From assembly GCA_024516035.1 (NCBI GenBank), contig CM044962.1:2040527-2104526 (forward strand): a stretch of 64,000 bases of DNA. Reading direction: 5' to 3'. Below the pieces are notes generated by a model. That model was given only the letters and a program-made list of their open reading frames with translations. It was not told the DNA's origin and searched no databases. Of this stretch, positions 224-52,959 are shown in pieces (positions within the stretch are counted from its first letter, which is position 1; each line of letters opens with the position of its first letter). This DNA comes from Bactericera cockerelli (Eukaryota > Arthropoda > Insecta > Hemiptera > Triozidae). A program made the position numbers and the translations under genes.

Positions 224-3200
224 GTAAATGTTGTTTGTTAAAACAAAGCCAGGGCCCCACTGAGAGTAACATTTTGTTGAGCAACCCTTCATAATCCACT
301 CTTTCTTTAGGATCAAATCTAAAACAACACCCTCAAATTATGTATAAAAAAAAAGATTGTGTTGAGTAAACCATGCCTACAGGCAACACATCATTGGGTG
401 TGCGGTCGTTAAATATATATTTATATGTATTTTAACTTAAAAAAAAACTAACAAAAAAATAACAACAAAATTTGAGACTTCATGTTGCACTCAGTGAGAT
501 CCCCGGTATTGCATGTTTTTTTTTTTGGTTTTGGTTTTTTTTTTTTTTTATTATTTAAAAAAAGTTAATGGTGCCTCAGAACCGCTTTCGCATTACTTCA
601 GTGCACTTTGCCTACACACCCATGCCATTCCAGAACAGAAAAACTTGGTTAGAATTTTCTGCTTGTGCTGGGATTCGAACCTGTAACCAATGTTCTAAAA
701 CACGCCACCACAGAGATCGGCAGAGAATCTTAACATTCTATTATCCACTTAAGACTATAATCAGTTGTAAAATGTGAGTTTCGACTTATTTTTACGTGTT
801 CACTTATTCAGTTAGTTTTATTATTGCATGCACTGAAGAATGTCTATTTGTTTGTGCACTATTGTCTTCTTCTTCTTCCTTTTTTTTCTTCTTCCTCTTT
901 TCAAGTACATACATAATCTGTTGAGATGATGAGCAAAGCCTTACTGATGAATTCAAGAAATAATGCAGTTGTCTTCAAATGACTGATTAAAGACAACTTT
1001 TATTATTAATGCTGCAAAAAAGATCTGCCTTCACATAGCTCAATTCATCAGCTATAATTTATTATTATTGCACGTACATAAATTATTGTATTACAAGTTC
1101 AAATGTATTCAGGACCATATAGGTAATTTGTGTACACATTTTAGACATACAAATCAACAAATTTCATAGTATTTTAAACAACATTACACTCACAAGACAT
1201 GAAAGGAGCCCAGAACATTGCTTCTGGGCGTCCAGGGGGGTTATTACCCCCATTTATCCTTCCACCACCATGACACAACCATCATGGACACGGAAAAAAA
1301 ACCATAAATATGCTGTGTTTTCGGGCTTTGTAAATAATTCCTTCACAAAGGCCCCAAAACTTAGTAAATGGGCCTTTGTAAATTAGATCCCTTCTTTAGA
1401 CAATTATTGTAGAATTTCCAAGGGACTTCTTCACAATCTGAATGCATGAACTCGTCTATTTTTCATTGTCTGCGTCAATGTTGCTGGGTAGGAAAGTTTT
1501 GTGTACCAATCCTCGCTTACCATGCGGAAAGTCCGGGGTTCGATCCCCCGAGCCGACAATTTTTTTTTTACATATCTTTTCAAAATATATCACAATAGAT
1601 CTCATAAGGTTGCAGTTGAATTGAGTTTCCACTCAAAATATGCAACCAGGTCTGAAAAAAAATCGTTTAAAAAAATCCCAGTAATGGAAAACCCATTAAA
1701 ATATGAAATTATCTCTCTCTAAGTCATGAGAAAACCCCTCCGTCCAGCAACATTGGCCTTTCGTATTGATGGTCAAGCGCCATTTAGCTCTTTTGAATAG
1801 AATAGAAACCTTGTTTGTACTGCTGAAGTAAGACTAGTGACGTCAAGTAGTCAAGTGGTTAAAGCACTAGTCTGGTAATCCAAGAAGCGTAGGGATTCGT
1901 TCATTCAAATCCCACCCAATGCATGAATTTTCCACATTAATTTGGGTTTGTGACCACATAATAATAAGACTCTGAGGGTTAGGTGGTAGAAATGCTTTAA
2001 TCATCAACCTGTCACCTTCCACTTCAGAGTGTTATTATTATTATAAGTATTATGCTTATTATTGCCAACCTTTGTAAAACATTTTATGTAAATACAAAAA
2101 AAAAAAAAAAAATATTATTATAAGACTGAAAAGTCCGTTTACTCCAGCAGTCAAACAGGTCTTACGTACATATTTCATGGTTTGAATTTTTCTTCTGGTG
2201 ACGGTTCTCTCTCTCTCTTACGTGTTCGACTTTCCCCCTTATTCCTCGTTGTCAAGGCGGCGGCAGCGGTGGTGGGTTCGACTTGGCAACACTGCTCGCC
2301 TCTAATCCTCTTCTCCTCGCAGCGAGCGGCGGCAACACTGCACTCCTCGCGCAACTCCTGCAGGCCCAGGCCCTCAGCGGCAACCTGGGCCTCTTCAACC
2401 CGGCCCTGTGGGGGGCCGGAGGGGCCGCGGGCGGCCTCATGGGCCCCGGGGGCGGCAAGATGCCCTACCTGATGAGCGAGAGCAAGATGCGCCAGGAGGC
2501 CCAGCAGCAGCAACAGCAGCAGGAGGAGGAGGACAATGACGACGAGGTAGGATACCGTTCTCGAGATATTCTCGATGAGGCACGTGAGTGTGGGAGGTTA
2601 TATCTATGTATATAATATTATTTTATTTAAGTTCCGTTTCTGTTCTTCTTAATTGTTATATATTAAATAAAAAAATGATGAAAAAGTATTAAAAAAAATA
2701 TATATATATATATGCTCGATGAGGCACGTGTTTGGTGTGGGAGGTTGATACCGTTCTCGATATATTCTCGATGAGGCACCTGTTTGGTGTGGGAGGTTGA
2801 TACCGTTTTCGAGATATTCAAGATGAGGCACGTGTTTGGTGTGGGAGGTTGATACCGTTTTCGAGATATTCTCGATGAGGTACGTGTAAGGTTTGGGAGG
2901 AGGGGGAAATAACGTTCTCGAGGTATTTTTTGTCAAAATATTTCAAGCACGCTCTGAATGAACGAATAGATATTCATTTATTTATTTGAGTTGTTCAGAA
3001 AGTCAAAGTTATCATATTTGTGTTTGTCTTATATTGTTGAACCTGGATAAAAAAAAATCCTCCACTGTCATTCAAGATTATGCCACCCTATGGTGATGAT
3101 TGGTGTCAATTTTGTATTTTAATTTTCATCATTATTTGTTTGTACGTATGTCCTGTTAATGAAGAAGTTAATTATAATAATATTATGCCATAATAATAAA

Positions 3201-6200
3201 ACAATTATGCCATAATAATAAGAAAACAATCTCTAAAAAATATTGTTTATTTTTGATATTGGTTGTGCTGTACACATATGAATAAATATATCTTGGTTAT
3301 TTATGCCGTAATAATAAGAAGTTTCCTCAACACATAATTCATATGACCTACTTGTGTAGATCATATGATTTCAAAATTAACGAATAGGACTGAATTGTCC
3401 CTTCTAATGTATCAAATGTAAAAACAAAATAAATGTTCATGTAATAATATTCCAATAATAATAATAATGGATACCCCCAGAACATGGGCGTGGCGGAAAC
3501 GTACGCGGACTACATGCCCACCAAGCTGAAGGTGGGCCGCAAGCACCCCGACCCGGTGGTGGAGACCGCCTCCCTCTCCAGCGTGGAGCCCGCCCACGTG
3601 TGGTACGCCCTCAGCATCCCGGAGCCCACGATCAGGACGGGCGCCCTCTCCGCCCTTCAGCTCGAGGCCATCACGTACGCCTCCCAGGCCCACGAGCAGT
3701 TCCTGCCCGACGGGTCACGGGCCGGCTTCCTCGTCGGTGAGTGAGCAATGTGCGGTTCCCCCGTCGTCGTCATCGCTCCCTGTCCCTCGAATGCTTCCTC
3801 AAAAAGGAGTACAGATTTTGTTTTTCTGTTTATCTTAATATATAAATGTCAAAGACACTCACTGACCACTGACCACTGACCACTGACTGATCATCGCTCT
3901 ACAGCCCAAACCGTAAGTCCTAAGAAGCTGAAATTTGGTAGGTAGCTTTGTCTTATAATCTAGATGTACAATAAGACGGGATTTTTCGAAACTCCCACTA
4001 CAACACCTGCCATTGGCGAAAAAGGATTTTTTGCTTTCACGGCCATGCCTCGGCCGGCAAAGCGGGCGACAGCCTGCTTGTACTGATTAAAATAGAGAAG
4101 TTAGTTGATGGCATGGATATTCAGAACTATTACCTGCTGATGAGATCAAATACGCTCGAAACAGCTGTCCAGGTATGTTCTGATATTCATGTACATCTAG
4201 TACAACTTCTCACTTTTCTGTTTATACTGACAGACTCACTGTCACAGACCACAAGCGTCCAAAGTAGCTGCTCTTTCATGGCTATCCAACAAAAAAGACT
4301 GTTAAACACTCATCTTTTTTTTTTCAAGTCAATATTATTGGTATTGTTGTAGCGGAAAAAGCTAAAAAAAAAAGTGTGGGACTGGTAGTCATCTGGTTAA
4401 CGCGCTAGTCTGGTAGTCGAGGTAGATCCTTACGCTAGATCGTGTGGTGTTTGTTTTTTTTAGGATTTTTTGTTGTTGTTTTATTACTATTTCTAGTTAT
4501 GTTATTCTCAGCTTGCACTTTGGGTGACCTGGGTTCTAAACCACTGGTAGTCTCAAGTATCACGAAAGTGATGGACACAAATATGATAACGAGTGTTACT
4601 GTAAATAAAATTTGATCGAATTTTGTTATTTGTAATCAGTATAATCAGTATAAAAAGAAAAGTGAGAAGTTGTATTAGATGTACATGAATATCAGAACAT
4701 ACCTGGACAGCTGTTTCGAGCTTATTTGCTCTCATCAGCAGGTAATAGTTCTGAATATCCATGCCATCAACTAACCTCTCTATTTTAATCGTAATAATAG
4801 GCAATGTTGTATTTGGCGTAACGGTTGTAGCCTGACTACTGCCCGTAGTACAGAGATCCTGAGTTCGATCCCCGGACGGAGCAGATTTATCACACAGAAA
4901 ATTCTGTTCCCTCCGTACATGTGAGGCTGGCATTTCCGGCCCTACCCAGGCTGGGTGAGGTTATTGTGGGTAGCTGGTACGATTCCCAGCGAATGGAGGG
5001 TAAAACCCCCGTCCTAATCCATTACGTTAGATCAAAAAGAAACGTTGGCGTTAGGAAGACCATCCAGCCGTAAAAATGTGCCAAAACCAACCACCCTCAA
5101 CCATGACGTTGAACAACGTCGACACTGCTTAAGGGGAATAAGACAGAGTAAAAGAAGAAGTTGTATTTGGCATCAATAATATACAAGAATGAACAAAAGT
5201 ACATACAATAATAGTTAGGTAATACAGTAAAAAATATGTGAATGTTAGGTAAGCAGGTATAATATACTATAGGTCATATCTAAAAAAAAACTGTATTTCT
5301 GTTCCAGGGGACGGCGCGGGGGTGGGCAAGGGGCGCACCATAGCCGGGTGCATCCTCGAGAACTGGCTGAAGGGCCGCAAGCGGGCCATCTGGGTGTCGG
5401 TGTCCAACGACCTCAAGTACGACGCCGAGAGAGACCTGAAAGACATCGGGGCGCCCAAGATAGACGTCTACCCTATGAACAAGTTCAAGTACGCGAAGAT
5501 CTCATCCGCGCCCAACGGTAAGCGGTGTGCCGTGGGTTCGAATCCCGGGTAAAGCGATTTTTTTTTGTTGTTTTATTATTATTATTTCTTGTTATGTTAT
5601 TCTCAGTTTGCACTTCAGGTGACCTGGGTTCTAATCCACTGGTAGTCAAGTGAACGTAAATATATTGAAAAAAAAAAAATTAAAAAAAAATATACCGACA
5701 GTTTATATTATTTGGACACAAATCCTGTAAATAGAATGATGAGACAGGCAAATCAACTGTGATGTTTCTTATTTACTATATTTACCATAACTTCAATAGT
5801 CATATTTATAATTTTTATGTTAATTTTCCAGTCTCTTGATATGTTTAATGTATTTAAATTTCTCTTGTATTTTATAAATTACAAAAGAAAATACATACGA
5901 ACTAGGTTTAGCGTAAGTATACACCCTCGTTTTGTTTTTCTTGACGTTGCAAAACTAGCGTTTTGCGTGATAACTTTTTTTATGCAATATATTTTTTTAT
6001 GTTTTATTATTATATATGGACTCTTACCGTAAATATAAGTGCCTCTGAGCGTGGAGGGGATTGCCATAGGCAATAACCCCGCCCTTTAGTTAGGACATAT
6101 GTATATATTTTGTTTATTTTTTTTTCTTGTTTACGAGGTCCGACAATAAAGTTCCCGGACGACCCCCATAGCTCCGGCTCTGATGTACATAGCTCAACAA

Positions 6201-9200
6201 TTTTTTGCAGGAATTAACCATAGTTCCTCATGTTCATATTTAATTAACTTTAATTTCTTTCTGATCGGTAGTTTTCAAATAATCCGTCATCATCAAACAC
6301 CTTGTCAGTGCACTTTGCCGGATTTTTCAAATTAATGAGTGTTTCACACAGCCTTCACCACTAAACAAAAAAATCCGATTTTCCAGGTCTCACCGTGCTG
6401 GAGCTCTGCAGAACAAACTCCCCAAGCTCGCGTGATCTACGCGTCCGCCCACTGGAGCCTCGGAACCTCGCCAACATGCCTTACATGACGAGGCTGGGTA
6501 AGAGCACAACCGCTTTCAGGGTTACACAAGGTTAAAAAAAAAAAAAATTCAGGGTGAGCATAAAGTCTCACCCCACCCCCCGTAATCTCGAGAATGGCTG
6601 GAAAATACAAGAACACGCAAAAACACGTAACCCTTCGATTTAAGGGGGATTCATTTTCAGCCAAACAAAAAATTTTGCCTACACGGCCCCAGTCAGGCTG
6701 GGCATGGACCAACTTTAAAATCTAAATAAACGGTAGGTATTGTGGCATATTGTTTTTATAAGGTCTCATAGAGAGAATTCATTTACAAAAAATTTCAGTG
6801 AGCTACGACTTACCGTTCCTCGAGATACAGGGCGAACGTCCTGCATAATATCCATATATTTTTGACCTATAACTCGTTAAGCACGTAATATAGAAAAATG
6901 AATTTTTTTGATAATAACTCCTTATGACAAGCTCTGTCGAAAAAAGTTATAACTCGACATCCTCTGTTGATGTTAGTTTCTGGTCGGTTTCGTCAGCCAG
7001 CTGACGAACAGTCCTAAAAATTTTTTAACGAAAAAACAAATCACGTTTAACTTGTTCAAAGTTCACTTGCATAAGGAGTTTATTATCAACAAATATCCTT
7101 TTTCTGGAATTTACGGTCAACGAAGTTTAAAGGTCATAAATATAATGGATATTACCTCAGGACGACCGACCCTGTATCTCAAAACGTACAGTTGTAAGCT
7201 CACTGAAATTTGTTTGTAATGAACTATCTCTATGAAGAACCTATAAAAACAATATGCCACAAGAACATACTATTCTATTTAAGATTTTAAAGTTGGTCCA
7301 TGCCCAGCCTGACTGGGGCCGTATAGGCCAAATTTTTTTTTGGCTAATAAGAAACCCATAAAATCGAAGGGATGCGTGTTTTTGCGTTTTTCTTGTACTT
7401 CTTAGCCATTCTCGAGATACGGGGTGGGGTGAGACATTATGCTCACACCTGATACTCCCGTAATTATATGAAATATAAATTCTTCTAGGCTACTAAAAAT
7501 ATATTTCAAAGGTAAAACATTTCTTCAAAACTCACTACGAAGGAAGCGAGCCTCTGAGCTCGAGCTATTGCCCCTTTGGAATGCCTGTGATATCTTTTGT
7601 ATCAGGAACAGATGCCAGCGAGAATCACCAGAAACGGCGCCCGAAGAGCAGCAAGCCAATCTTTTTTTAGAAAAGATATCGACGTCAGCGCCCCAAGGAC
7701 CCAACTTTCAACTGAGAAACGCAAGAAAGCTATAGTTGTCTTTTATCCTTGAGTAATTCAAGTGCTTTTTGCGTGCAGCGTTCTCAGAGGAAAATCCAGT
7801 CCTTCACATCGTTCTGTTAGTTCCGCGAGCGAATAATCAGAATAAATTCTCAATATCAAAATCAGAATAGGAAAACGCTAGGATTATATCCTCCCTAAGT
7901 TAAGCTACAATGAGGTAAGATAAAAAATAATCTAAAAATATCTTCAGTTTTTCAACCTAAATGACATTTTTTTCTTCTCGAATTTTGTCCGCGACGACCT
8001 AATCAATTCTACACGAGAAAGTTTTGGTAAGGGTTTTGATCTTTCATCAATTGACACATCGAATCGCGAATTTCTGATAGCTGTTTTTGAGGTAAAAAAA
8101 TGGATGGATGACTAAAAAATATTCATTTTTTTTTTTTTTTTTTAAACTAAAAGACTCATTTCAACGCGCCGCGCGCCGCGCCGTGTGTGGTGTGTGTGGT
8201 TGTGTGTGTGGTGTGTGTGTTGTGTGTGTGGTTTGGAAGCGCGGTGTAAACCCCTATGAGTATAAACATTTATGTATTAAGATAATATTGCCAGTATAAT
8301 ATACTGCCAATAAGGACTAAGAGTCTTTATCATCCCAGCAATAAGTCTAAGACGTATTCACTATTTCTTACGTGGTCAAAATCAGAATTTAGGTGGCTAA
8401 ATTGACATATTAATGATGTGGTCAAATCATTTTTTTTGGGAATATTCAGAGTGGTTCATTGCACGGATGTGGATGTGGTCAAAATCTCGATTTTTTTTTT
8501 CGTTTTGAAAAAATCAAACTCTAAGTGGTTCGTTGCATGAGTACCGACCTCAGTACTTGATTGATAAAGCGGCGGCGGATTGTAACCTGGAGGCGCGGTG
8601 GTCAATTCCCGTTTCAGCGTAGATTTAGTAAAAGCGAGTTTGACTAGTTGTGACATCACGAAAGTGATTAACCAAATCGTCGGCTGGAACGCTAAAATTG
8701 ACATCCCCACCCAGTCCTTTCAAGTAACAATTGTTTTCCTCGCTTTTCCCGCGCATATGTTTGAATAACTACCGAACTTAGCATTTTTAGCCAATAGTTA
8801 GGTTAATTCCGACCAGAGTAACGAAAAATCGAGAAATGACAACTGTCACTTGGTCAGTTTTACTCTATCTAGCCGACGAAATAATGACAACTTTTTTTTT
8901 GTTTGGTTGCAGGAATCGTGGGGCCAGGGGACTATCCCGTTTCCCCGAGTTCATGGACTTATCGGGGCGGTGGAGAAGCGGGGTCCGCCATGAGATCGTC
9001 GCCATGGACATGAAGCTGCGGGAAGTGAACATCGCGCGCCCAGCACAGCTTCCACGGCGTCCGATTCAAGATCGAGGAGGTGCCGCTCAGAGGATTTCAG
9101 CAAGATGTACGACGACTCGGTGAAGCTGGTGAGTTGACGGGTGACTCGGTGAACTGAAAATCAGTGACTCGGTGACCTGAATCATGACTGGGTGAGTTGG

Positions 9201-12200
9201 AATTAAGTGACTTGGTGAATGTTGAATCAGTGACTTAGTGGAGTTAAATCAGTGACTTGGTGAAGCTGGTGATGTTTGACCGGTGACTCGGTGGAACTGA
9301 AATCTGACTCGGTGAACTGAATCATGACTGGGTGAGTTGAATTAGTGACTTGGTGAGATGAATCAGTGACTTGGTGAGTTTAAATCAGTGACTGTGGTGA
9401 AGCTGTGAGTGAGCGGGTGACATGTGAGTTGAATCAGTGACTTGTGAAGTTAAATCAGTGACTTGGTGAAGCTGGTGAGTGACGGTGACTTGTGAGTTGA
9501 AATCAGTTGCCTAGGGTGAGATAAATTCAGTGACTGGTGAAGCTGGTGAGTTGATCGGTACTCGGTGGAAGCAGTGAGTTGAGCGGGTGACACGGTGAGT
9601 GAAGCGGGTGACCTCTCGTGAAGCTGGTGAGTTGAAAGCGGGTGACTCTCGTGAAAGCTGGTGAGATGAGCGGTGACACGTGAACTGAATCAGTGACTGG
9701 GTGATTAAATCGTGAAGCTGGTGAGTTTTGAGCGGGTGACTCGTGAAGCTGGTGGAAGTTTGAGCGGGTGACTCGGTGAAGCTGGTGAGATTGAGCGGGT
9801 GACTCCGTGAAGCTGGTGAGTTGAGCGGTGACTCTGTGAACTGAATCATGACTTGGTGAACAGAATCAGTGACTGGGTGAGTTAAATCGTGAAGCTGGTG
9901 AGTTGAGCGGGTGACTCGGTGAAGCTGGTGAGTTGAGCGGGTGACTCGGAGAAGCAGTGAGTTGAGCGGGTGACCACGTCGAACTGAATCAGTGACCTTG
10001 GTGAAGCTGGTGAGTTGACGGTGACTCGGTGAACTGAATCAGTGACTCGGTGGATGCTGGTGAGCTGAGCGGGTGACTCTCGGTGAACTGATCAGTGACT
10101 CGGTGTGTTGAATCAGTGACTTGGTGAGTTTGAGGCGGGTGACTCGGTGAAGCTGGTGAGTTGAGCGGGTGTCATAACTAATAAAGCATACTATTATTAT
10201 AAATTCTTTTTTGAAAGTTACCAAAGGTATTTAGATCGTTTTGTATTGTTAGTTTTGCCATAAATTTAATCCCACGTACATGACTTACTTTCTGGTCAAG
10301 AGTTTTACCTACAGCATACTATAACAATAAATTGACAACAAATTTTTTGTACTTTCTATTATCACCTGACCTCATAGCTTGATCCAAAGGCGGCGGACTT
10401 GAAAACCAGGAGGTCGGTGGTTCAAGTCCCCCGGTTTTCAGCGTTAGAATTTAGTAAAGCGAGTTCTAGTAGTTGTGATATCACGAAAAGTGATTATCAC
10501 AAATATGGATTAACTTTATTATTAATTTTTTTTTTGGTTCGACGCTGCCGCCCCATCCCGTAGTATGCCTCCATCCCCCTCTGATGGGCGAGAATTTTAT
10601 TTTCATCTTTTACTTTTTTTGTACTATTTATCATTTATTTATTTTTTCTTAATTTATCCTGTAAATTTGACTTTTGAACTCTTACATAAAGATTAAAATA
10701 TAATAACGATTCTAAGTTGATTTTTGAGAATAGTTCTAGTTATTGTAAAAAAAGGTATCAAAATTACGATGTTTATACCCTGTGTTCCATTTCGAACAAT
10801 TAATGTATTGTATGTTATATGTTATATTCTTGTAAATAGAGCTTTGCTCGTTTAATAAATGAATCAGGTAGAAACCCGGTGATATTAAAATAAAAAATAA
10901 ATAAAAATATTGTATTGGTAATTGACGACTGGATCTGTTCCAGTTGGTGGACGCCAGCACAATTCCAGGAGGCGGCGGAGCTGGTGGATGCTGAGAACGC
11001 ATGAAGAAACCCATGTTGGGCCATTTCCTGGAGCTCGCACCAGAAGGTTTCTTCAAGTACCTGTGCATTGCGGCCAAGGTGCGGCACGCCGTGCAGATAG
11101 CCAAGGTAAAGTGCGGCACGCCGTGCAGATAGTCAGGTAAGATTGCGGCACCCGGGCAGATAGCCAAGGTAAGAATTGCGGCACGCCGTGCAGATAGCCA
11201 GGTAGATTGCGGCACCGCCGTGCAGAGATAGCCAGGTAAGATTGCGGCCAAAGTGCGACACTATCTCAATCAGCTTTGTTAATTGCCGGAGGCAAACATA
11301 ATATTATATTTACTGCCTTATTCATACCGCCCGATTAGGACGAAATGAGAGCCAATATTATACGCAGTAAGCCCAAGCGCATTATTATGTGGTGAAAATT
11401 CCAAAAGGGAGGATAACTTATTATGTTCCCGGCTGGGTTTTTCGAACCCGCGACCTCCGGTTTACCACTAGAAATAGTATAGAATTCGAAGAATAGAATA
11501 GAAGTATTCTATTTCATTCCTATTCTATTCCATTCTATTCTAATTCCTAATTATTCAATCTATTCTATTCTATTCTACTCTATTTCTATTCCATTCTATT
11601 CTATTCATTCTATTCTACTTCTATTCTATTCCATTCCATTCTATCTATCTAATTCTACTCTATTCTATTCCATTCTATTCTATTCTATTCCAATTCTATC
11701 TATTCTAATTCTATTCGTACATCTAATTCTATTCTATTCTATTCCAATCCTAATTCCATTCTATTCCCATTACTATTCTATCTATTCTACTCTATTCTAT
11801 TCCATCTATCTAATCTATTCTATTCTATACTACTCTATTCAATCCTCATTCTATTCTATTCTATTCTATTCTATACATTCTATTCTATCTATTCTATTCT
11901 ATTCTATTCCTATTCTATTTCTATTCTTCTCTATTCTAATCTAGCCCCATTCTATTCCTGGGAAGCCATCAAAGTGAGGCAAGTGTGTGGTTGATAGGCC
12001 TGAGAGCACGGGAGAGGCCAGGACGCTGGAAACAGCCTGGAGCGGATGAGGGGACTGTCCGACTTTGTTTCCCAACCGCCAAGTAATTCCGGGGGGGCTG
12101 TTGCACGAAGCAGCTTCTTGAAATACATCCAGGTAGCGTAATTTGCTTTAAATTAGACTGTCAGAGTGCAAGACAGTTAGCTCCCATTTGCACCGTAAAG

Positions 12201-13387: not shown

Positions 13388-13730
13388 GTAACAACCCCCC
13401 ACATCTCTATGATCTCTCTCTGCTCGTGTCTGTCTGTCTGTCTGGTTTGTAGTAGACCTGTCTGTTGTTTTGTAGTATTATAGTCCTGTCACAACTCGAG
13501 GTAACCCCCCCCCCTCTAAATGATCTCTCTCCTGCTCGTGACTGTCTGTCTGTCTGTCAGTGGTTTGTAGTAGTAGTCTGTCTGTTCCGTTGTTTTTGTA
13601 GTAGTTAGAGTCTGTCAACACGAGGTAACCCCCCACTCTATGATCTCTCCCTGCTCGTGTCTGTCTGTCATGGTTTGTAGTATTCTGTCCGTCGGTCTGT
13701 TTTTGTAGTAGTTAGAGTCCTGTCCCCACG
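13388..13730 (+). repeat. ~115-bp array repeating the e11 donor
   Basis: Three units begin [AC]ACGAG|GTAACCCCCC, as at the real e11 donor, and continue CTATGATCTCTCTCTGCTCG, CTGTCTGTCTG and TGGTTTGTAGTAGT. Mirrored at 18,115-18,453. Confidence 0.85.
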
Positions 13731-13989
13731 ATGATTATTCTATTTACACTCTAATTTTTTTGTACAGAACAATCCATAATAAATCAATACTAGGGGAAAA
13801 AATATATACAAAAAAAATCCTTAAAAAAATATCATCAACATCATAGGTGGCGTCCATCGAGAAACGATGGTAGCCAACAGTGGAGGAAATGACTCAGCTC
13901 TTCTACCACTGTCTTTACAAGGATCTAATAATTGAACAAGGCCCCCACAAACAGAACCAGAACACCAAAAAATGATAGAACAACATTAA

Positions 13990-18453: not shown

Positions 18454-18686
18454 CTCGTTTGACATTGCGGCCGTCGCCGGGCGGAGGAGATAACTCACAT
18501 GATTTTTCTTTGCCCGCGCGCTGGAGCTCGAACCCGTGGTCTCCGGCTCTGTGGTCCCGTTGCTCTGTTGGCTTGCTGCTGCGCCCGCCGCCCCCCGCCG
18601 CCCTTTGCCCGCCAGCTCGAGGAGGCGGCGGACTCGGTTCCTGTCGGGGCGGGAAGTGCGTCACCACCAGAGAACTGGAGGACGCC
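18454..18686 (-). CDS. sno: sno exon e11 (arm B)
   Basis: CTCTCCCCCCAG|GGCGTCCTCCAG opens the GVLQS block, followed by the GC-rich linker; it ends AAACGAG|GTACC. Here the linker reads AAGGGG(R)...ELQRAGKEK in one frame, but indels leave the true frame open. Confidence 0.78.
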
Positions 18687-21600
18687 CTGGGGGGAGAGGA
18701 CATGGGTGTATATGTGTTGTAAAAAGGGTTGGGTGGAATGAGATTGCCATAGCAATAACCCCGCCCTTAGTTAGGACCTTATGTTAGTTTATATTTTCTA
18801 TCTTTTTCCATTTTCATTGTATATATTTGTTTCCCCATTTTTTCATTGTTTAAATTAATAAATTATTTCTATGTACATAAGTCCCATTTATTCCTAATAA
18901 GCGTGTATAATAATAATAATAAATATACTCTTTAGTGAAGCAAACCAATAGTCCACTGTGGCAGAGTGACTTAGCGTGCTAGGCATTGCCGCATGGTGAC
19001 CTGGGTTCGATCCCCAGCGGGCAGGAATTTTCTTGCTCTGTACTTGGATGTTCGGGTCCAACTCATACGTTCGTGAGTAAAAATGAGTAGTTACTTTGTA
19101 CGAGTAAACGACCAGTGGCCATTACCATAGTTAAACGAAATTAATGTAATAGAATAAATCGAAATGTAAAGAGGCTCTTAGTAATGCTGCGCTTGCTCAC
19201 AAAAATTGTGAGGAGCCATGTGTCTTCACCACAAATAAAATCATACATACTCCTTTATTGGAATGCTAACCACCGGGCGATCTATTACTAACACCAAAGG
19301 AACGGATTTCCGGTTGAATCAATCATCTCCCAAAGGCCCTAGGTTTTTTAGAGGGTGATAATCCCCGCTCCCCATGTTTTCCGGGTGTATTTTAAAGAAT
19401 ATTTTCTCCCAATCCTCTCTCTCAAAAAAAAAAAAAAAAAACACCAAAGGTCCTTGTCAGAAAAAAGTAATAATAATAACACTCTTTAGCGGAAGGTACC
19501 ATCAGGCGATGCATCAAGCATTTTTCTCCCACCTAACCCTCAGAGTTTTTTATTATTACGTGGTCAAATACTCAAATAAATGAGGAAAAGCCTCATGCAT
19601 TGTGTGGGATTCGAACCAACGGAACCTACGGAGCATAAATGGGGACTACCGATCTTGGCACTGACATCTAAAATAAAGCACTTACGCTACCTGGATGTAT
19701 TTCAAAACGCTTTCGTGCAACAGCCCCCCGGAACTTACTTTGGCGGTGGAAACAAAGTCACAGTTCCCCCTCAAAATCCCGCCCAGCTTTCCAGCGTCCT
19801 GGCCTCATCCCCACAGTGGCTCTGCAGGCCTATCACCACACACTTCCGCACTTGATGGCTTCCCTGGAATAGAAGGGGGTAAATAAATAAGAGAATAAAT
19901 AGAATAAATTAGAATATAATAGAATAAAAAGAATAGAAGAGAATAGAATAGTATAAGAATAGATAATAGAATGGAATAGAATAGAGTAGAATAATAAATA
20001 GAAATAGAAATGGAATAGAATAAGTAGAATTAGAATAAATAGAATGGAATAGAAATGGAATAGAATGGAATAGAATAGAATAGAATAGAATAGAATAGAA
20101 TAAGAATAGAATAGACTAGAATAGAATAGAATAGAAATGGAAATAGAATAGAGTAGAATAGAATAGAAATAGAATGGAATGGAATAGAATCAGTAGAATA
20201 GAATAAATATAATAGAATGAGAATTAGAATAGAGTAGAATAGATAAATAGAATGAGAATAAAATAGAATAGAATATAAATGGAATAGAATAGAATAGAAT
20301 AGAATACTTCTATTCATTCTTCGACCTTCTATTCTATTTTCAAGTGGTAATCCGGAGGTTCGCGGGTTCGAAACCCAGCCGGAACCATAATAAGTTTATC
20401 TCCCATTTGGAATTTACACCACATAATTAATACGCCATGGGCTACTTCTAAAATATTTGGCTCTCTCAATATTCCTAATCGGGCGGTATGAAATAAGGCA
20501 GTTATTTATAATCTAAGTTTGCCTCAGGAATTACAATGATTGAAGATAGTGTCGCACTTTGGCCGCAATCTTACCTGGCTATCACTGCACGGCGTGCCGC
20601 AATCTTACCTGCTATCTTGCACGCGAGCCGCAATCTACCTGGCTATCCTGCACGGCTGCCCGCAATCTACCTGACTATCTGCACGGCGTGCCGCACTCTT
20701 ACCTGGCTATCTGCACGGCGAGCCGCACCTTGGCCGCAATGCACAGGTAACTTGAAGAACCACTGGTGCGAGCTCCAAACTGGCCCCACATGTCTCTTCA
20801 TGCGGTTCTCACATCCCACCACTTTCCGCCGCCTCCTGGAACTTGTGCATGGCGTCCACCCACTGTAACAGATATCCCTCGTCAATACAAACAATATTTT
20901 TATATTTTTTATTTTAATATCACCGGGTTTTTACCCTGTTCATTTATAAAACGACAAAGCTCTATTTTACTGAATATAACATATAACATACAATACATCT
21001 GGTTTCGAAATGGAATACACCCCAGTATAACATCGAATATCTGAATACTTTTTTTACAAACAAGAACTACTTCTCAAAAATCAAACTTAAATTCGTTTAT
21101 TAAATTTTAATCTTTATTAAGAATACAAAGTACAATATTACAGGATAACATAAGAAAAAATAAATAAATGAATTAAAAATACAATAAAATAAAAGAAGAA
21201 AATAAAATTCTCCGCCCATCAGAGGGGGATGGGGGCATACTACGGGTATGGCAGCGACGAACCAAAAAAAAAAAAATAATAAATAAAAGTTAGCATATTT
21301 GGTGTTATCACTTTCGTGATATCACAACTACACGAACTACGCTTTACTAAATCTCACCTGAAGACCGGAACTTGAACCACCCGACCTCCAGGTTACAAGT
21401 CCGCCGCCTTAGCGATCAAGCGACTGAGTCGTGATATTAGAAAGTACAAAAAAGTTTGTCATATTATTGTTATATAGTATGCTGTAGGTACTTTGACCAG
21501 AAGTAAGTCATGTACGTGGATTAAATTTAGGCAAAACTTAACAATACAACGATCTAAATACCCTTTGGTAACTTTCAAAAAGAATTAATTAAAATAGTAT

Positions 21601-23586
21601 TCTTATATGTAAGACACCCGCTCAACTCACCACTTTTCACCGAGTCCCACCCGCTCAACTCACCAAGTCCCACTGATTCAAACACACCGAGTCACTGATT
21701 CAGTTTTCACCGAGAGTCCTCCCCTCTCAGCACACCAGCTTCACCGAGTCACTGATTCAGTTCACCGAGTCACCCGCTCAACTCAACAGCATCACCAAGT
21801 CACTGATTCAGTTCACCGAACCACCCCTCAACTCACCAGCTTCACCGAGTCCACCCCCCCCCCCCCCTCACTCACCACTTCACCGATTCACCCGCCTCAA
21901 CTCACCAGCTTCACCGATTTAACTCACCCAGTCACTGATTCCAGTTCACCAAGTCACTGATACAGTTCACCGAAGTCACCCGCTCAACTCACCACTCACC
22001 GAGTCACCCGCTCAACTCACCAGCTTCACCGAGTCACCCGCTCAACTCACCAGCTTCATCGAGTCTCCTGCTCAACTCACCAGCTTCACCGATTTAACTC
22101 ACCCAGTCCAACTGATTCCATTTCACCGATCACCCGCTCCAACTCACCAGCTTCACCGAGAGTCACCGCCAACTCACCACTTCACCGAGAGTCACCCGCT
22201 CAACTCACCGCGTCACCCTGCTCAAACTCACCATCTTCACCGAGTCACCCGATCAACTCACCAGCTTCACCAAGTCCACTGATTTAACTCACCAAGCACT
22301 GATTCAACTCACCCAAGTCACCCGCTCAACTCACCAGCTTCACCAAGTCACTGATTTTAAACTCACCAATCACTGATTCCACTCACCAAATCACCCGCTC
22401 AACTCACCAGCTTCACCAATCACTGATTTAACTCACTCAAGTCCACAGATTCAACTCACCAAGTCACTAATATCAACTCACCCAGCTCACAGATTCAGTT
22501 CACCGAGTCACTGATCAGTTCACCGAGTCACCCCTCAACTCACCAGCTTCACCAAGTCACTGATTTAACTCACTATCCTCACTGATTCAACCACCAAGTC
22601 ACTAATTCAACTCACCCAGATCACTGGATTCATTTCACCGAAGTCCACTGATTCAGTTCACCGAGTCAACCCGCTCAACTCCACCAGCTTCACCGATCGT
22701 AGTACATTCTTGCTGAACTCCTCGTTGAGCGCACCTCCTCGATCTTGAACGACACGCCGTGGAAGCTGAGCTGGCCGCGCATGTACATTCCCCCGCAGCT
22801 TCATGTCCATGCGACCGATCTCCATGGCGCCGTCCCCCCCGCTTCTCCACCGCCCCGATAAAGTCATGGAACTCGGGGAACGGAGTCCCCTGGCCCCGAC
22901 ATTTCCTGCAACCAAACAAAAAAAAAAGTTGTCATATTTCGTCCGGCTAGAAGGTAAAACTGACCATGGTGAACAGTTGGTCATTTCTCGATTTTTCGTT
23001 ACTCCTGGTCGGAAATTAACCTAACTATTGGCTAAAAATCAAAAGATCGGTAGTATTCAAACTATGCGCGGAAAAAGCGAGAAAACAATTGATACTGAAA
23101 GACATGGATGTCAATTTTACGTTCCAGCCGACCGATTATGTGTTAATCACTTTTCGTGATGTCAAAACAGTCAAACCGCTTTTACTAAATCTACGCTGAA
23201 ACGGACTTGAACCCCGCGCCCTCCAGGTTACAAATCCGCCGCCTTATCAATCAAGCTACTGAGTCGGTACTCATGCAACGAACCACATAAGATTTGATTT
23301 TTTTCAAAACGAAAAAAAAAATCGAGATTTAGACCACATCCAACATCCGTGCAATGAACCACCTGAATATTCCCAAAAAAAATGATTATTTTGACCACAT
23401 CATAAATGTCAATTAGCCACCTAAATTCTGATTTTGACCATCGTAAGAATACTGAATACGTCTTAGACTTATTGCTGGATGATAAAGACTCATTAGTCCT
23501 ATTCGGCATAAATAATACTGGCAAAATTAACTTTAATACATAAATGTTTATACTCACGAGCGGGTTACACCGCCGCTTCAATCCCA

Positions 23587-23621
<35 letters not shown>

Positions 23622-26600
23622 ACCCACACACGCCGCGCGCTCGCGTTGAAATGTCCCCTTTAGTTTAAAAAAAAAAAAAAAAAAAACTGATTATTTTTTT
23701 TTTAGTCATCCATCCATTTTTTTTAATCCTCAAAAACAGCTCATCAAGAAATTCGCGATCGATGTGTCAAATGAAAGATCAAACCCTTACCCAAAACTTT
23801 CCGCTAGAATTGATAGGCGTCGCGACAAATTTCGAGAAAAAATGTCATTTAAGGTTTAAAAAACGTGAAGATATTTTTAGATTCATGTTTAACCTTACTC
23901 ATTGTATGCTTAACCTTAGGAGATATAACCCTAGCGTTTTCCTATTCTGATTTTGATATGAGAATATATCTGATCTCGCTAGCGAGAACTAACAGAAACG
24001 GATGCTGAGACCTGGATTTTTCCGCTGAGAACGCTGCACGCAAAAATCACTTGAATTACTCCAAGGATAAAAACAACTATAGCTTTCTTGCGTTCTCAGT
24101 TGAAACGTTGGTCCCTTGGGCAGCCTGAGTCGATATCTTTTCTAAAAGAAGATTTGGCTCTGCTCTTTCGGCGCGTTTCTGGTGATTCTCGCTGGCATCA
24201 GTTCCTGAAAACAAAAAGATATCACAGGCCACCAAAGGGCAATAGCTCGAGCATCAGAGGCACGCTTCCCTCTCGGTAGTGAGTTTTGAAAAATGTTTTT
24301 ACCTTTGAAATATACTTTTAAGCCTAGCCAAAAGAATTTATATATCATATACATACGAGGATACAGGGTGAGCATAAAAAGTCTCACCCCACCCCCGTAT
24401 CTCGAGAATGGCTAAGAATACAAGAAAAAACGCAAAAACACCATCCCTTCATTTAAGTAAGGGTTTTCCATTTTTAAGCCAAAAAAAATTTGCCTATACG
24501 CCCAGTCAGTCGCTGGGCATGGACCATCTTTATAATCTTAAAAAGAATAGAAAGTCCTTGTGGCATAATTGGTTTTAAAAGTCTCATAGAAGATAAGTTC
24601 CATTACAACAAATTTTCAGTGAGCTTACAACTTACCGTTTTTGAGATACCAGGGTCGGACGTCCTCTAATAACATATATTTTGACCATAACCTCGTTGAA
24701 CCGAAAATTCCAGTAAAAATGAAATTTGTTGAAATAACTCCTTATGCAAGAACTTTTGAACAAGTTTAAACTGATTGTTTTTTCGTTTAAAATTTTATAG
24801 GACTGTTCGTCAGGCTGGCTGACGAAACCGAACCAAACTCAACATCACAGAGTATGTCGAGTTATAACTTTTTACCGACTGAGCTTGTCATAAGAGTTAA
24901 ATCAAAAAAATTCATTTTTCTATAATTTTACGGTTAACGCTTATAGACAAAATATAATGGAGTATTATGCAGGACTTCGACCCTGTATCTCGAAACGTAA
25001 GTCGTAGCTCACTGAAATTTTTTTGTAATGAACTATCTCTCATGAGAACCCTAAAAAACAATATGCCAACAAAACCTACCGTTCCCCTATTTAAGATTTG
25101 AAAAAGTTGGTCCATGCCCAGCCTGACTGGGCCGTGTATGGGCAAATTTTTTTTGGCTGAAAATGAATCCCCCTTAAATCGAAGGATAACGTGTTTTTGC
25201 GTTTTTCTTGTATTTTCAGCCATCTCGAGATACGGGGGTGGGTGAGACCTTTATGCCTCACCCTGAATTCTGTGTATACCCTGAAAGCGGGGTGGGGTGC
25301 ACTTACCCAGCTCGTCATGTGCCATGTTGCGAGTACCGAGCTCCATGGCGGACGCCGTAGATCACGCGAGCCTTGGGGAGTTTGTTCTGCAGCTCACACG
25401 TGGAGACTGGGAACATCGGATTTTTTGTTTAGTGGAAGCTGTGTGAAACACTCATAATGAAATTGGAGCAAAAAAAAATATTATTGTTTTTTATCAAAAT
25501 CTAACACAATAAATACCCTACTTCCGTTTCCTTTATATAGAAATTTTGACAAATTATATCGTTTTTTATTGGATATTCAACAAATTAGATAATCGCTGGG
25601 CTTTTTAAGATCTTGACGAATAGACATTTCTTGAAAATGACACCGGGTCCACCTGGAAGTGCAAGCCGAGCATGCAACCGCAAGGCAAGGTGACTACTCC
25701 CAGGTTTCTCTTAATGGAGAGTTATTTTCTCTTCAGAGAGAGGTAAATTTGGACCAGTAAGTGGTTCTCTTTACAGGTTTTCACTTATATCCCAATTTCT
25801 CTTATTTTTAATTTCTCTTATATCCAGATTCTCTTATATCCAGGTTATGACTGTACTACTCTTCTTTAGTCCATAGTAAAAGGTAACCACCAAGCAAAGG
25901 TACACAAGAAAAGTTTAACTAGCCGGACGAAGTTGAACTGAAAAACATATCGAGTTACACCTTGTTCGAATGGTCCGTTTAAAAAAAAATTTACTAGGTG
26001 TCCATATTGGTTAGTCAGTTTTATTTGTTAAAGAAACTATCCCCGGCGCGCGAACGAATTGCAAAAACATTAAAGCGCCTGGTTGAAAAAAAAAAAAACT
26101 TACCCGTCTGGTTTAGGCTTCGCTGCCCACGGGACACAGGTTCTGGCGCGGTGCACTCGTCAAACCACAGGCCGTCAAAGTCCTCGCCGCACCACTGCAG
26201 CAGCTGCTTGAGCCGCGTCTTGTAGGCGCCGCCCGCGCTGTTGGATCGCCTATGAGCGCCGAGTAGGTGGAGAAGATACGCCCCTTCTTCACGTTTGCCC
26301 TTATGCGACCTAACCAAGATAAGTAAACAGAATAAATTGAAATGGTGCCTGACGTCACATCTTCACGTTGCCTAGGCGACCAAACCAAAGATAAGTAAAC
26401 AGAATAATTGTAATTGTATAGTGCTCAGAGCACGTTGCCTAGGCGACCAAACCAGAGATAAGTAAACAAATAATTGAATCGGTACATTCAAAAACGACAT
26501 CATTCCAAAAGTAAACTTTTTGGAAAATCAAAAAAAATTCCCATTCATTTTTGTCCATAAAAAAAAAAGAAAAAATATGTATCGTAGGACTACCAAAAGA

Positions 26601-29600
26601 TAACCATCTATCTAATTTTTGGTCAGATAGGTAGTGACATTTCAAATAAATAGCCGTTCAAGGTCGTGGAATGATGCTGTTTTTGCACAATCGAAAATAT
26701 TATAAAATAATAACACACGTACACTTCGAATTTTTTATTGTTATTTCAAACAAAAAGCAAAAAAATAATGAACCCACTAAAAATATATGTATAAAAAGAA
26801 ATCCTGGTGTAAACATCAAACACGACTTTCCTTATCCCCGAAAAGAAGTTGAACTCCGGCACTCCGTGACTCAACGGTAACAGCAGCAAATCAATGCCAA
26901 ATTCGTAATCAGCAACCTCATAATCATTGATTTGGATATGTCACAATCCCCACTAGAAGACATAATACAAAAAGTTTAAAAAAATAGTCCAAATCGGTCC
27001 CCCCAAGATACCGGTAAATTTGGGCCGAGGTCCAAAAAGTTTCACAAGATTATCAAAAAAATGATAGAAGGATACCCCTATTATTTTTTTAATCTAAGAA
27101 AATGTTTTTCCTCTAACTTTTTTTTGTATCTTTAATCAAATCATAGAAGCGGCGCTGCGGCAATATTTGCGCCCTGGGGCGCATTTTGCGCCAATTTCAA
27201 CCAAAAAATTGTTCTGTGGTACGTTTGTGTATAAAATTGATTTTTCATACCAAATTTCAAGTCTCTAGCTCTTACCGTTTTCTGGAGATATCCTGTTCAC
27301 ACACACACAGACAGATACACCATTCTACAGATTACATGCAAGAACCGCTTCAATCCCGGATCTATGTCGTTCTTGCATGAACGAAAATTAAGAAAACGTG
27401 TTTATATAGGAAGGGAGTAGCAAGAATGATTTGGTTTTGATATAAAATTGTGCGTTACCTTCCGAGATCCAAAATCATGAAAACCCCATTTTCCAAAAAA
27501 AATGTGAATTGAAATGTCGTTTTTGCATGTACCCGATCATTGTGATTGTAAGTGGTGCTCAACGCTTACGTCGAGAAGATGACGCCCCCCTTCCTTCACG
27601 TGCCTAGGCGGACGAAACGGAAGATAAGTAAACAGAATAATTGTAATGAATTGGTGCTCAGAGGCACGTTGCCTAGCGACGAAACCAAAGAAAGTAAACG
27701 GAATAATTGTAATTGGTGCTAAGAGGCACGTGCCTAGCGACGAAACGAGAGATAAGTCAACAGAATATTGAAATAGTGCTCAGAGGCTCGTTGCCTAGGC
27801 GACGAAACCAGAGAATAAGTAAACAGAATACTTGTGATTCTAATAGTGCTCAGAGCAGGTTGCCTAGCGACAAACCGAGAAAAGTAAACGGATAATTGTA
27901 ATTGTAATGGTGTTCAGATGCACGTTGTCTCGGCGACGAAACGAGAGATAAAGTACACAGAAAAAATGTAATGTAATGGTGCTGACGCCCTTCTTCACGT
28001 TGCCTACGACGAAACCAAAGATAATAAACAGAATAATTTTAATGTGCTCAGAGGGACGTTGTCTAGGCGACGAAACGAAAGACAATAAACAGAATAATTT
28101 TAATTGTAATATGCAGACGCCCTTCTTCACGTTGCCTAGGCGACGAAACGAGTGATAAGTAAACAGAATAATTGTAGTTGTAATGGTGCTGACGCCTTTC
28201 TTTACGTTGCCTAGGCGACGAAACCAGAGATAATTAAACAGAATAATTGTAGTTGTAATGGTGCTGACGCCCTTTCTTCCGTTGCCTAGGCGACGCAACG
28301 AGAGACAAGTAAACGTATAATTGTAATTGTAATAGTGCTGACGCCCTTCTTCACGTGCCTAGGCACGAAACGAGAGATAAGTAAACAGAATAAATTGTAG
28401 TTGTCAATGGTGCTGACGCCTTTCTTTACGTTGCTAGGCGACGAAACGAGAGATAAGTAAACCGAATAATTGTAGTTGTAATGGTGCTGACGCCTTACTT
28501 TTACGTTGCCTAGGCGACGAATCGAGAGATAAGTAAACAGAATACTTGTAATTGTAATAGTGCATGGACCCCTTCTTCACGTTTGCCTAGGCGACGAAAA
28601 CGAGAGATAAGTAAACAAATAATTGTAGTTGTAATGGTGCAGACGCCTTATCTTTACGTTGCCAAGGCGCCAAACGAGAGATAAGTATACAGAATAATTG
28701 TAGTTGTAATGGAGCTGACGCCTTTCTTTACGTCGCCTAAGCACGAAAACGAGAGATAAGTAAACAGAATAATTGTAATTGTATAGTGCTGACGCCCTTC
28801 TTCACGTTGCCTACGATGAAACGAAGATAAGTAAAGACAGAATAAATGAGTTGTAATGGTGCTGACGCTTCTTTACGTTGCTAGGCGAACGAAACGAGAG
28901 ATAAGTAAACAGAAATATTTGTAGTTGTAATTGCTTGACGCCTTTCTTTACGTTGCCTAGCGACGAAACGAGAGATAAGTAAACAGAATAATTGTAGTTG
29001 TAATGGTGCTGACCGCCTGTTCTTTACGTTTTGCCTAGCGACGAAACGAGAATAAGTAAACAGAATATTTGTAATAGTAATAATTATGTAATAGTGCTCA
29101 GAGGCACGAGCCTCGCAACGTAACAAAAGATACTAAACAGAATAATTGTAAATGAATAGTGCTCATAGGCACGTTTTTGCCTAGTGACGAAACGAAAGAT
29201 AATAAACAGAAATAATTTGTAATTGTAATATTATTGTAATATGTCCAGAGCACGTTGCCTAGGCAACGAAACAAAAGATAAGTAAACAGATAATTGTAAT
29301 TGTAATAGTGCTTCAAGGCACGTTGCCTAGGCGACGAAACCAAAGATAAGTGAAAACAGAATAATTGGTAATTGTAATGGTGCTGTACGCCTTTCTTCAC
29401 GTTGCCATAGCGACGAAACCAAAGATAATAAACAAATAATTGTAATTGTAATGGTGCTGACGCTTCTTCACTCACCGTTGCCTAGGCGACGAGACCAAGA
29501 TAATAAACAAATAATTGTACATTGTAATATGCTGACGCCATTCTTCACGTTGCTAGCACGAAACCAAAGATAAGTAAACAGAATAAATTGGTAATTGTAA

Positions 29601-32600
29601 TTGGGTGCTGACGCCTTTCTTCAGTTTGCTAGGCGACGAAACCAAAGATGAAGTAAACAGAATAATTGTATTTGTAATGGTGCTGACGCCTTTCTTCACG
29701 TTGGCCTAGGCAACGAGACCAAAGAATAAGTAAACATAATAATTGTAATTGTAATGGTGCTGACGCCTTTTCTTCACGTTGCCTAGGCGACCAAACCAAA
29801 GATAAGTAAAACAAAATAATTGTAATTTGTACTGGTGCTCAGAGTATGTGCCTAGATCGACGAAACCAAAGATAAGTAAACGGAATAATTGTAAGTGTCC
29901 TAAAGGCCAACTTGCCTAGCGACGAAACGAAAAATAAGTAAACAGAATAGTAGTAATTGTAATAAGTGCTAAGAGGCTCGTTGCCTAGCGACAAACGAAA
30001 GATAAGTATACAGAATAATAGTAATTGTAAAGGTGCTGACGCCTTTCTCACGTTGCCTAGCGACCAAACAAAGATAAAGTAAACAGAATAATTGGTAATT
30101 GTAATGGGTGCTCAGAGGCACGTTTGTCCTAGGCGACGAAAACCAATGGCCTAGGCGACGAAACCAAAGATAAGTAAACAGAATAATTGATATTGTAATG
30201 GTGCTGACGCCTTCTTTTACGTTTCCTAGCGACGAAACGAAAAGATAAAGTAAACAGAAATAATGTAATTGTAAGGTGGCACGACGCCTTTCTTTACTTC
30301 TGCCTAGGCGACGAACCGAGAGATAAGTAAACAAATAATTGTAATTGTAATTATTTATTTAGAAACTCTTTTATTAGTGAACATATATACAGACAAATAA
30401 TGGTTAAACAATTAAATATAAAAATATCACAATAATAAATAATATAACGATGTCCGACAATAAAGTTCCCCCCCGGACAACCCCCCATAACTAATCCGGC
30501 TCTGATGTACAAAGCTTCAACAAGTTTTTGGCAGGAATTTAACCGTAGTTCCTCATGTTCATATCTCATTACCTTTAATCTCTTTCTGATCGGTAGTTTT
30601 TCAAATAATCATCATATCGAACACCTTGTCAGTGCACTTTGCCGGATTTTTCCAAATGTTGATTAAAATTTTAGAACAACGTGTAAACGTGAAATTTCTT
30701 CTTACAAAACTAAACAAAAGTCAATCGATCGTATTGAAAATCATGTATCGTCACATAAAATGACCTTTTCTAGGAATGCGATCGTTTTTAACTGGGTCTG
30801 AAGAGCGGTCCAATGCACACTTCTTGGCGTCGATCTTACTGCTCCGCTGAAAGGTTTTTTGGTACCATTTTTTTGCACAATTTTTTCTCATTGTAAAATT
30901 TGTCTCACTGTCCTCTCTATTTAATGGGGTTAGCCGGAGCTATGGGGGTCGTCCGGGAACTTTATGTTCGACCTCGTAAACAAGAAAAAAAATAAACAAA
31001 ATATATACATAGTTTATCATATTGCTATTATTCTTACACTAAGTCGCCTATCATTTCGATGATTTTAACAATTTTTTCCGCGTTCTCATCCTCTTTTGAA
31101 GTGGTAGGTCGCCTGATTCGTTTATCATCTCGACGTCCTCCCTACCCCTCCTTAAATCTTTTGAACCAATCATAAAACGTTGTCCCTACCCATACACTCA
31201 TCACCATACACTTCTTTTAACATTTTAAAACAAACCGATTGCTTTGTTTATTTTTGATAAGTTTATTTTCAGGTTTTTTTTTTGTAACACGTAGTTCTAA
31301 AAATTTACTCACATTTTAATTTTGAAAAATCCGGCAAAGTGCACTGACAAGGTGTTTGATGATGACGGATTATTTGCAAAACCTACCGAACAGAAAGAAA
31401 ATTAAGTTAATTAAATATGAACATGAGGAACTATGGTTAATTCCTTGCAAAAAATTGTTGAGCTATGACATCAGAGCCCGGAGCTATGGGGGTCGTCCGG
31501 AACTTTATTGTCGACCTCGTAAACAAGAAAAAAAATAAAACAAAAATAAACATATGGCCTAACAAAGGGCGGGTTTAATTGCCTAAGGCAATCCCCTCCA
31601 CGCTCGAGGCACTAATATTTACGGAAGAGTCCAATATATAATAATAAAACATAAAAAAATATAAAGCATAAAAAAAGTTATCACGCAAAACGCAAGTTTT
31701 TTGCAACCGTCAAGAAACAAAACGAGGGTGTATACTTCCGCTAAACCTATTCGTATGTATTTCTTTGTAATGTATAAAATACAAGAGAAAGTTAAATACA
31801 TTTAACATACAAGAGACTGGAAATTAAACATAAAAATTATAAATATGACTATTGAAAGTTATGAAAAATATAGTAAATAAGAAACATCACAGTTGATTTG
31901 CCCCTGTCTCATCATTCTATTTACAGGATTTGGTGTCAAATAAAATAACCTAGTCGGTAATTTTATTTTAATTTTTTTTTTTCAAAAATTTACGTTCCAC
32001 TTGACTACCATGAATAGAACCCAGGTCACCTGAAGTGCAAACTGAGAATAACATAACAAGAAATAATACTAATAAAACAACAAAAAAAAAAATCGCTTTA
32101 CCGGGATTCGAACCCACGTCACACCGCTTACCGTGGGCTCGGATGAGATCTTCGCTTACTTGAACTTGTTCATAGGTAGAACGTCTTCTTGGGCGCCCCG
32201 AAGTCATTCAGGTCTCTCTCGGCGTCGTACTTGAGGTCGTTGGACACCGACACCCAATGGCCCGCTTGCGGCCCTTCAGCCAGTTCTCGAGGATGCACCC
32301 GCTATGTGCGCCCCTTGCCCACCCCCGCGCCGTCCCCTGGGAACAGAAAATACAAGTTTTTTTTATTAGATATGACCATAGTATATTATACCTGCTACCT
32401 AACATTCACATATTTTTTACTGTATTACCTATTAATTGCTAATATGTATGTACTTTTGTTCATTCTTGTATAATTATTGATGCAATACAACTTCTCTTTA
32501 CTCCTGTCTTATTCCCCTTATGCAGTGTCGACGATGTTTCAACGACATGGTTTGCGGGTGGTTGGTTTTGGCACATTTTACGGCTGGATGGTCCTCCTAA

Positions 32601-52950: not shown

Positions 52951-52959
52951 AGTTCCCAT

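Follow-up and report, generated by a model that had tools for sequence, protein, structure and literature searches.

Splice junctions of the strawberry notch (sno) gene of the psyllid Bactericera cockerelli are repeated in tandem arrays whose units carry the exon-intron border itself, and these arrays are probably minisatellites of splice junctions, a type known in amphioxus as 'mirages'. The window, that is the whole stretch of 64,000 nucleotides analysed here (C8:2040527-2104526), belongs to an assembly of 565 Mb in 1032 contigs. Its gene was recognised as sno by the match of a 281-residue piece to Pfam AAA_34 (E = 3e-120) and by the joined exon translation, which is 90% identical to the protein of Cacopsylla melanoneura and 89% to that of Diaphorina citri, other named proteins reaching at most 77% among the 120 best matches listed. 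A clean copy of the gene (copy 2, joined loci L005-L024, offset 2104526) lies 134 kb away, the equivalent of window base 1 being C8:2174094, and is 99.86% identical to positions 1-6335 of the window. Eighteen exons (X1-X6 and X8-X19) were placed in copy 2, which gives 17 introns and 34 junctions, exons further out being unplaced; the exon ends match, by eye, those of psyllid and other insect sno proteins, and the copy is imperfect in that the reading frame is broken in X8 and X14. By Tandem Repeats Finder (TRF) and by reading, junction arrays of 2.8 to ~53 copies occupy 12 of these 34 junctions and 10 of the 17 placed introns (Table 1). Eight stand at donors and four at acceptors, so that both kinds of border are affected, and in two of the 12 (X2 donor and X14 acceptor) the unit holds only one to a few exon bases.

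Excess of arrays at exon borders

At a TRF score of at least 100 and a period of at least 15, eight of the 18 arrays of copy 2 overlap an exon border where 0.83 would be expected by position (P = 3e-7), and other cut-offs gave 8 of 22 against 0.90 (score 50) and 7 of 16 against 0.77 (score 150). Border overlap is a strict, computed class, in which displaced arrays with junction-containing units are not scored as matches, and the 'content' class is our own assignment. Since sno was picked for its arrays, the unbiased test is a sample of ten kinesin loci (PF00225) picked by Pfam family only and blind to repeats. There, six of eight arrays overlap a border against 0.96 expected (P = 3.7e-5), or six of 12 against 1.11 at score 50 (P = 2e-4). 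The judgement of the preliminary description of the window, that chance was unlikely, is therefore upheld in sno and in the kinesin sample alike.

Several points weigh against taking these figures at face value. The exon limits of the kinesin loci are the limits of Pfam matches and not exact exon ends; four of the six kinesin border arrays lie in one gene, L029; eight of 11 kinesin loci (the ten together with L038) have no junction array; and copy 2 and a further copy of sno described below are related, so that their arrays are not independent. With four arrays in L029 and most loci without any, the arrays are less independent than the P values imply. L029 (C1:63234000-63241700) has arrays at four borders, of which two are donors and one is an acceptor by sequence; the fourth adjoins the 3' limit of a matched exon and stands at a putative splice site. 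L029-like matches, inverted, lie ~1.4 Mb away.

Similar arrays were found on contigs C1, C3 and C11. Outside sno and the kinesins, a donor array with large units adjoins a coronin exon (E = 1.7e-5 for its PDB match) in the 200 kb of contig that hold sno. The coronin gene, and a second gene in which acceptors carry arrays (L007:6507-8184; L018:9523-10000, L019:1-122, L019:4525-5691; minus strand for both genes), were found via their arrays and stand outside the statistics. Arrays in which no junction was recognised are about equally dense inside and outside sno, with 4 in 39 kb inside and 17 in 161 kb outside at a period of at least 15 (19 outside at a period of at least 12); as genes outside sno are unannotated, the 17 may include junction arrays that escaped recognition.

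Copies of the gene and arrays in the window

Copy 3 of sno (L025-L027) carries exons X2 to X11 at ~C8:2416777-2440771, X1 not having been found in these loci. Its exons X2-X6 and X8-X10 are 97.2-99.7% identical to those of copy 2, X11 differs by 12 gap bases only, and 1.46 kb of the X6-X8 intron shows 29 mismatches (2.0%) and 7 gap openings; copies 2 and 3 may be two haplotypes that the assembler did not merge, or genuine duplicates of the gene. Before X9 in copy 3 stands an acceptor array of 65 bp x 14, with the unit TGTTCCAG/TGGGTGGACGCCATGCAC (the slash marking the border) and (ATA)n filler, where copy 2 has one plain acceptor at the same position. A single acceptor in one copy and 14 in the other indicate that the junction preceded the array, at least in this case, and by comparison of the two sequences the X9 acceptor array of copy 3 appears to have arisen from a single junction. 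The X5 array has ~4 copies in copy 3 by eye (2.7 by TRF) and ~35 in copy 2, the X9 donor array 14 and 5.2, and the X11 donor array two and three, and the X2 donor array directly adjoins its donor in copy 3 but is split from it by ~100 bp in copy 2. Array copy number shifts within the ~2% substitution divergence of these gene copies.

In the window, the preliminary description had named five sno arrays with units that contain the adjacent junction, and TRF recovered all five beside the exons named, in agreement with the clean copy. The acceptor array has the unit claimed for it, with the acceptor and the first exon bases (75 bp, minus strand, before exon 26295-26104). Of the four donor arrays said to start at the genuine donor, those after 9128, 11103 and 13387 lie next to their exons; the array after 2546 lies mostly ~100 bp off the donor, a first copy at the donor being followed by ~100 bp of other sequence and then by the 52-bp unit x 3.7 (2710-2900), in which there are a few exon bases only. 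A second correction is that the arrays at 9-14 kb are present twice, because the window folds back on itself. The sequence of positions 6335-25455 forms an inverted copy of itself, and two stretches of its arms (1.6 and 1.3 kb) show, against the clean copy, 2.4-2.9% mismatches and in every 100 bp 4.6-5.6 gap openings. This is the error profile of a raw read, and the fold-back is therefore probably an uncorrected chimeric long read, the raw read running through both strands. In the two arms and the clean copy, respectively, the donor arrays span 1043, 1083 and 1046 bp (X8), 169, 166 and 168 bp (X9) and 354, 351 and 350 bp (X11), and the span of the X5 acceptor array disagrees (2755 bp raw against 2330 bp clean).

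Table 1. Exons, junction arrays and fold-back of the window, with the junction arrays of copy 2; a slash marks the exon-intron border
Feature	Position	Strand	Border or unit	Basis
Window
Exon X2	2257..2546	+	ends GACGAG/GTAGG	100% match to copy 2
X2 donor-anchored array	2547..2900	+		TRF and reading
Exon X3, no junction array	3481..3736	+		exon mapping
Exon X4, no donor array	5308..5517	+		exon mapping
Fold-back of noisy, indel-rich sequence (inverted repeat)	6331..~39087, centre ~15935	.		self-comparison and comparison with clean copy
Exon X8	8913..9128	+	ends GTGAAGCTG/GTGAG	exon mapping
X8 donor array	9129..10171	+	units of irregular length (21-51 bp), GGTGAAGCTG/GTGAGTTGAGCGGGTGACTC with variants	TRF; copy 2 84042-85087
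Exon X9	10946..11103	+	ends ATAGCCAG/GTAAG	exon mapping
X9 donor array	11080..11248	+	32 bp x 5.2, a 25-bp exon end plus GTAAGAT	TRF; copy 2 85976-86143, 5.2 copies
Exon X11	13139..13387	+	ends AAACGAG/GTAAC	exon mapping
X11 donor array	13383..13736	+	~112-118 bp x 3 (112 bp in window, 118 bp in clean copy)	TRF; copy 2 88234-88583
Mirror image, X11 donor array	18107..18457	-		fold-back arm
Mirror image, X9 donor array	20562..20727	-		fold-back arm, TRF
Mirror image, X8 donor array	21612..22694	-		fold-back arm, TRF
Exon X5	26104..26295	-	starts CGCCTAG/GCAACGTGAAGAAGG	exon mapping
Acceptor array adjoining X5	26286..26478	-	~67 bp x 2.8	TRF; copy 2 80268-80465
Main X5 acceptor array	27597..30351	-	75-bp units with CGCCTAG/GCAACGTGAAGAA	TRF; copy 2 76841-79170, 31.9 copies
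Copy 2
X2 donor array			52 bp x 3.7
X5 acceptor array			75 bp x 32, and ~3 more beside the exon
X8 donor array			units 21-51 bp
X9 donor array			32 bp x 5.2
X11 donor array			118 bp x 3.1
X12 acceptor array			73 bp x 5.9
X13 donor array			21- and 82-bp units, 2.6 kb; 21-bp border unit x 53
X14 acceptor array			50 bp x 2.8, one exon base
X15 acceptor array			109 bp x 4.3, ~295 bp upstream of exon
X15 donor array			34 bp x 45
X17 donor array	~105441-106430		5 large units	by eye
X18 donor array			29 bp x 26

Other features of the locus were seen alongside these arrays. Exon X3 occurs four times on contig C8 (2044006, 2074433, 2177572 and 2417676), two occurrences being the window and its fold-back, one the near-identical copy and one the copy with ~2% intron substitutions, and a fragment of exon X5 with units of its acceptor array lies apart from the gene copies at L006:9250-9650. 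In copy 3 (13630-22162 in L025-L027), ~8.5 kb starting with (TAA)n stands between X9 and its donor array. Within the X4-X5 intron of copy 2, the sequence at ~75985-76120 (L012) resembles, by eye, a broken mariner-like transposase. A TATTC pentanucleotide array of ~440 bp reaches the X10 acceptor (window 11505-11943; copy 2 86394-86833), and that acceptor, CTATTCCAG, resembles the adjoining repeat. Outside sno, window positions 52953-57757 hold degenerate arrays of ~50-100 bp in noisy, partly G-rich sequence.

Origin of the arrays and competing explanations

If the arrays are junction minisatellites, a short tandem duplication (~20-280 bp) would first span an exon-intron border, so that each copy would hold an exon end with its donor, or an acceptor with its exon start, and unequal exchange or slippage would then multiply the duplicate. 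Splicing would use the exon-proximal copy, that is the 5'-most donor or the 3'-most acceptor, and the remaining copies would be removed together with the intron. A border-crossing duplication leaves one intact exon-side border and would thus be tolerated. We expect the exon-proximal copy to be the one used because inner copies mostly shift the frame, which usually damages the mRNA: 13 of 15 arrays have a unit that is not a multiple of three, and two have one that is (one unit for each array; three of 16 if both X13 units, 82 and 21 bp, are counted), in a list that was drawn up without X17, L028, L032 and the fourth L029 array and in which the X8 units are irregular. The same count speaks against frame-keeping units. 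A readier expansion of GC-rich units was likewise considered and is unsupported by eye, AT-rich units elsewhere in the contig reaching ~30 copies. No junction repeats were seen in the sno proteins of Cacopsylla and Diaphorina, which were compared by eye and as proteins only.

The preliminary description attributed the arrays to exchange or slippage seeded at the borders. The junction within the units, the one single-copy state and the excess over chance speak for this; on seeding itself the counts of two-copy duplications at borders diverge, with 0 of 18 by TRF and 2 of 6 by self-alignment. TRF, run on copies 2 and 3 of sno together with the 11 kinesin loci (142 borders in all, and 105.7 kb outside exons), placed 16 arrays of at least 2.8 copies at borders and 10 in introns, and those of fewer copies as 0 at borders, 15 in introns and 3 in exons (P = 5e-5); by our reading at least four of the 10 intronic arrays are junction arrays that have been displaced and two are parts of the X17 array, and the displaced X5 array of copy 3 (2.7 copies by TRF) was placed in the two-copy intronic class. 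Taken by itself, that zero would favour expansion rather than seeding at borders. The zero failed by sequence, the X11 donor of copy 3 being a two-copy border duplication split by TRF and the X2 donor of copy 3 having about two copies, and self-alignment gave 14 arrays at borders and 6 in introns against 2 and 4 for fewer copies (P = 0.16), a count that is less sensitive to short duplications and in which some multi-copy arrays are misjudged as two-copy. Both counts take in the related copies 2 and 3, so that their events are not independent. For the border preference, our first choice is a junction-linked process in starting or expanding duplications, and our second is selection for redundant sites. 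A stronger claim, in which a process specific to splice junctions (in starting or expanding duplications) or selection for multiplied splice sites would, in psyllids and separately from amphioxus, turn ordinary exon borders genome-wide into long tandem rows of identical sites that all work, is one that we can entertain and lean against.

Selection for redundant sites, under which extra donors and acceptors would recruit U1 and U2 and so, in introns rich in repeats, safeguard splicing or keep polyadenylation from occurring prematurely, we regard as unlikely, and the splice signals in the array copies are the evidence by which it is to be weighed. These were counted in 15 arrays that we selected from at least 21 known (left out were X2, X14 and X17 of copy 2, X2, X5 and X11 of copy 3, L028, L032 and the fourth L029 array), with copies taken at no more than 30% mismatch. 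GT or AG is kept in 264 of 266 copies, with 2 of 532 signal cells changed, compared with 499 of 9930 other cells, and in 14 arrays the same dinucleotide is broken in 2 of 265 cells at the junction against 63 of 583 elsewhere in the units (X11 of copy 2 adds one copy to the count of 15 arrays and is absent from the tests on 14). This is what such selection would leave, but the copies share ancestry and columns are therefore the fairer unit. Across the 14 arrays, variable columns number 1 of 28 for signals and 128 of 590 for the rest (P = 0.011); the figures are 1 of 28 and 106 of 526 for non-CpG columns (P = 0.017), 1 of 26 and 71 of 463 without the X5 array (P = 0.08), and 1 of 14 at the junction and 10 of 33 elsewhere for columns of the same dinucleotide (P = 0.09), and random placement of the site within each unit gave P = 0.05. 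These column tests are marginal (P 0.011 to 0.09), and the eight kinesin loci of 11 without a junction array also argue against selection. A constraint on the splice signals of array copies is thus suggestive only. The earlier proposal that arrays are tolerated as each duplicate keeps a working site agrees with the retention of GT and AG, and draws only P values of 0.01 to 0.09 from the tests that allow for ancestry.

Less probable still is an origin by insertion, in which the target-site duplication of a short or long interspersed element (SINE or LINE) with an (ATT)n tail would make the first duplicate and the tail would join the unit. Several acceptor units do contain (ATT)n or (AAT)n (for example at 92165 in copy 2 and 12579 in copy 3), and the long (TAA)n-led insertion that parts X9 of copy 3 from its donor array is in line with such events. 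However, such a tail is absent from the donor units listed for X8, X9, X13, X15 and X18, these introns are in any case rich in (ATT)n, and insertion leaves the border preference unexplained. That neutral arrays came to lie on borders by chance and were noticed since the gene is rich in arrays would fit the many tandem arrays elsewhere in the contig, but is made very improbable by the border counts, 8 of 18 in sno and 6 of 8 in the kinesins against 0.83 and 0.96 expected. Lastly, we reject as scarcely credible an artefact of read errors or misassembly, which the noisy fold-back of the window and the several occurrences of the gene region in the assembly might suggest, since copies 2 and 3 both hold the arrays and differ in their copy numbers, three arrays have the same length in copy 2 as on either strand of the noisy read, and similar arrays stand on contigs C1, C3 and C11.

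Junction minisatellites and related structures

Strings of up to ~50 near-identical splice sites at a real exon offer a direct test of splice-site choice, as scanning, proximity and exon definition each predict that a different copy is used. With a second, distant lineage beside amphioxus a common cause becomes testable, and errors by gene predictors and by assemblers are probable wherever such arrays occur.

Introners are dispersed repetitive elements carrying splice sites; the psyllid units resemble them as repetitive DNA with splice sites and differ in being tandem arrays of the local junction. The head-to-tail units of 20-300 bp and the variable copy number are those of intronic minisatellites or variable number tandem repeats, whereas a splice junction is part of most of the large arrays, both in sno and in the kinesin sample. 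Intron gain by tandem duplication of AGGT or of border-crossing segments, for example in potato RNA-dependent RNA polymerase (RdRp) genes (PMC4974935), is similar in that the duplication crosses the intron-exon border and reuses splice signals. It differs in that the X8-X9 intron of sno, the only one tested, is present in copy 2 without the acceptor array, so that there the intron is older than the array and no intron is seen to have been created. Among the titles listed by topical searches of the open PubMed Central library, which leaves out most subscription papers, none reported junction minisatellites in insects, and the main text of a Daphnia tandem-repeat paper (PMC3152781) is without the words 'splice', 'exon-intron' and 'intron-exon'.

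The psyllid is not a cephalochordate, and we use the name mirage for anatomy and not for descent. The original paper on the mirage of amphioxus Adh is reportedly that of Canestro and colleagues, 2002. In later papers, mirages are described for Adh, the globin genes BflGb6 and BflGb9 and troponin C, with related repeats in PGBD5, and reverse transcription PCR suggested that the repeats do not disturb regular splicing (PMC3087553, PMC3902484); their mechanism is described there as unclear (PMC3087553). Amphioxus and psyllid arrays agree in that minisatellite-like units span the exon-intron border on its 5' or 3' side, with exon and intron sequence, and in that many units carry AG/GT; the amphioxus arrays differ between haplotypes and the psyllid ones between gene copies. 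The preliminary description had known of no arrays this extensive in one gene, a statement that has to give way to amphioxus mirages as the same kind of structure. The psyllid arrays differ from them in reaching ~53 copies and in occupying 10 of the 17 placed introns of one gene. What is new here is the psyllid host, the unusual density and the direct evidence that one of the arrays grew out of a single junction.

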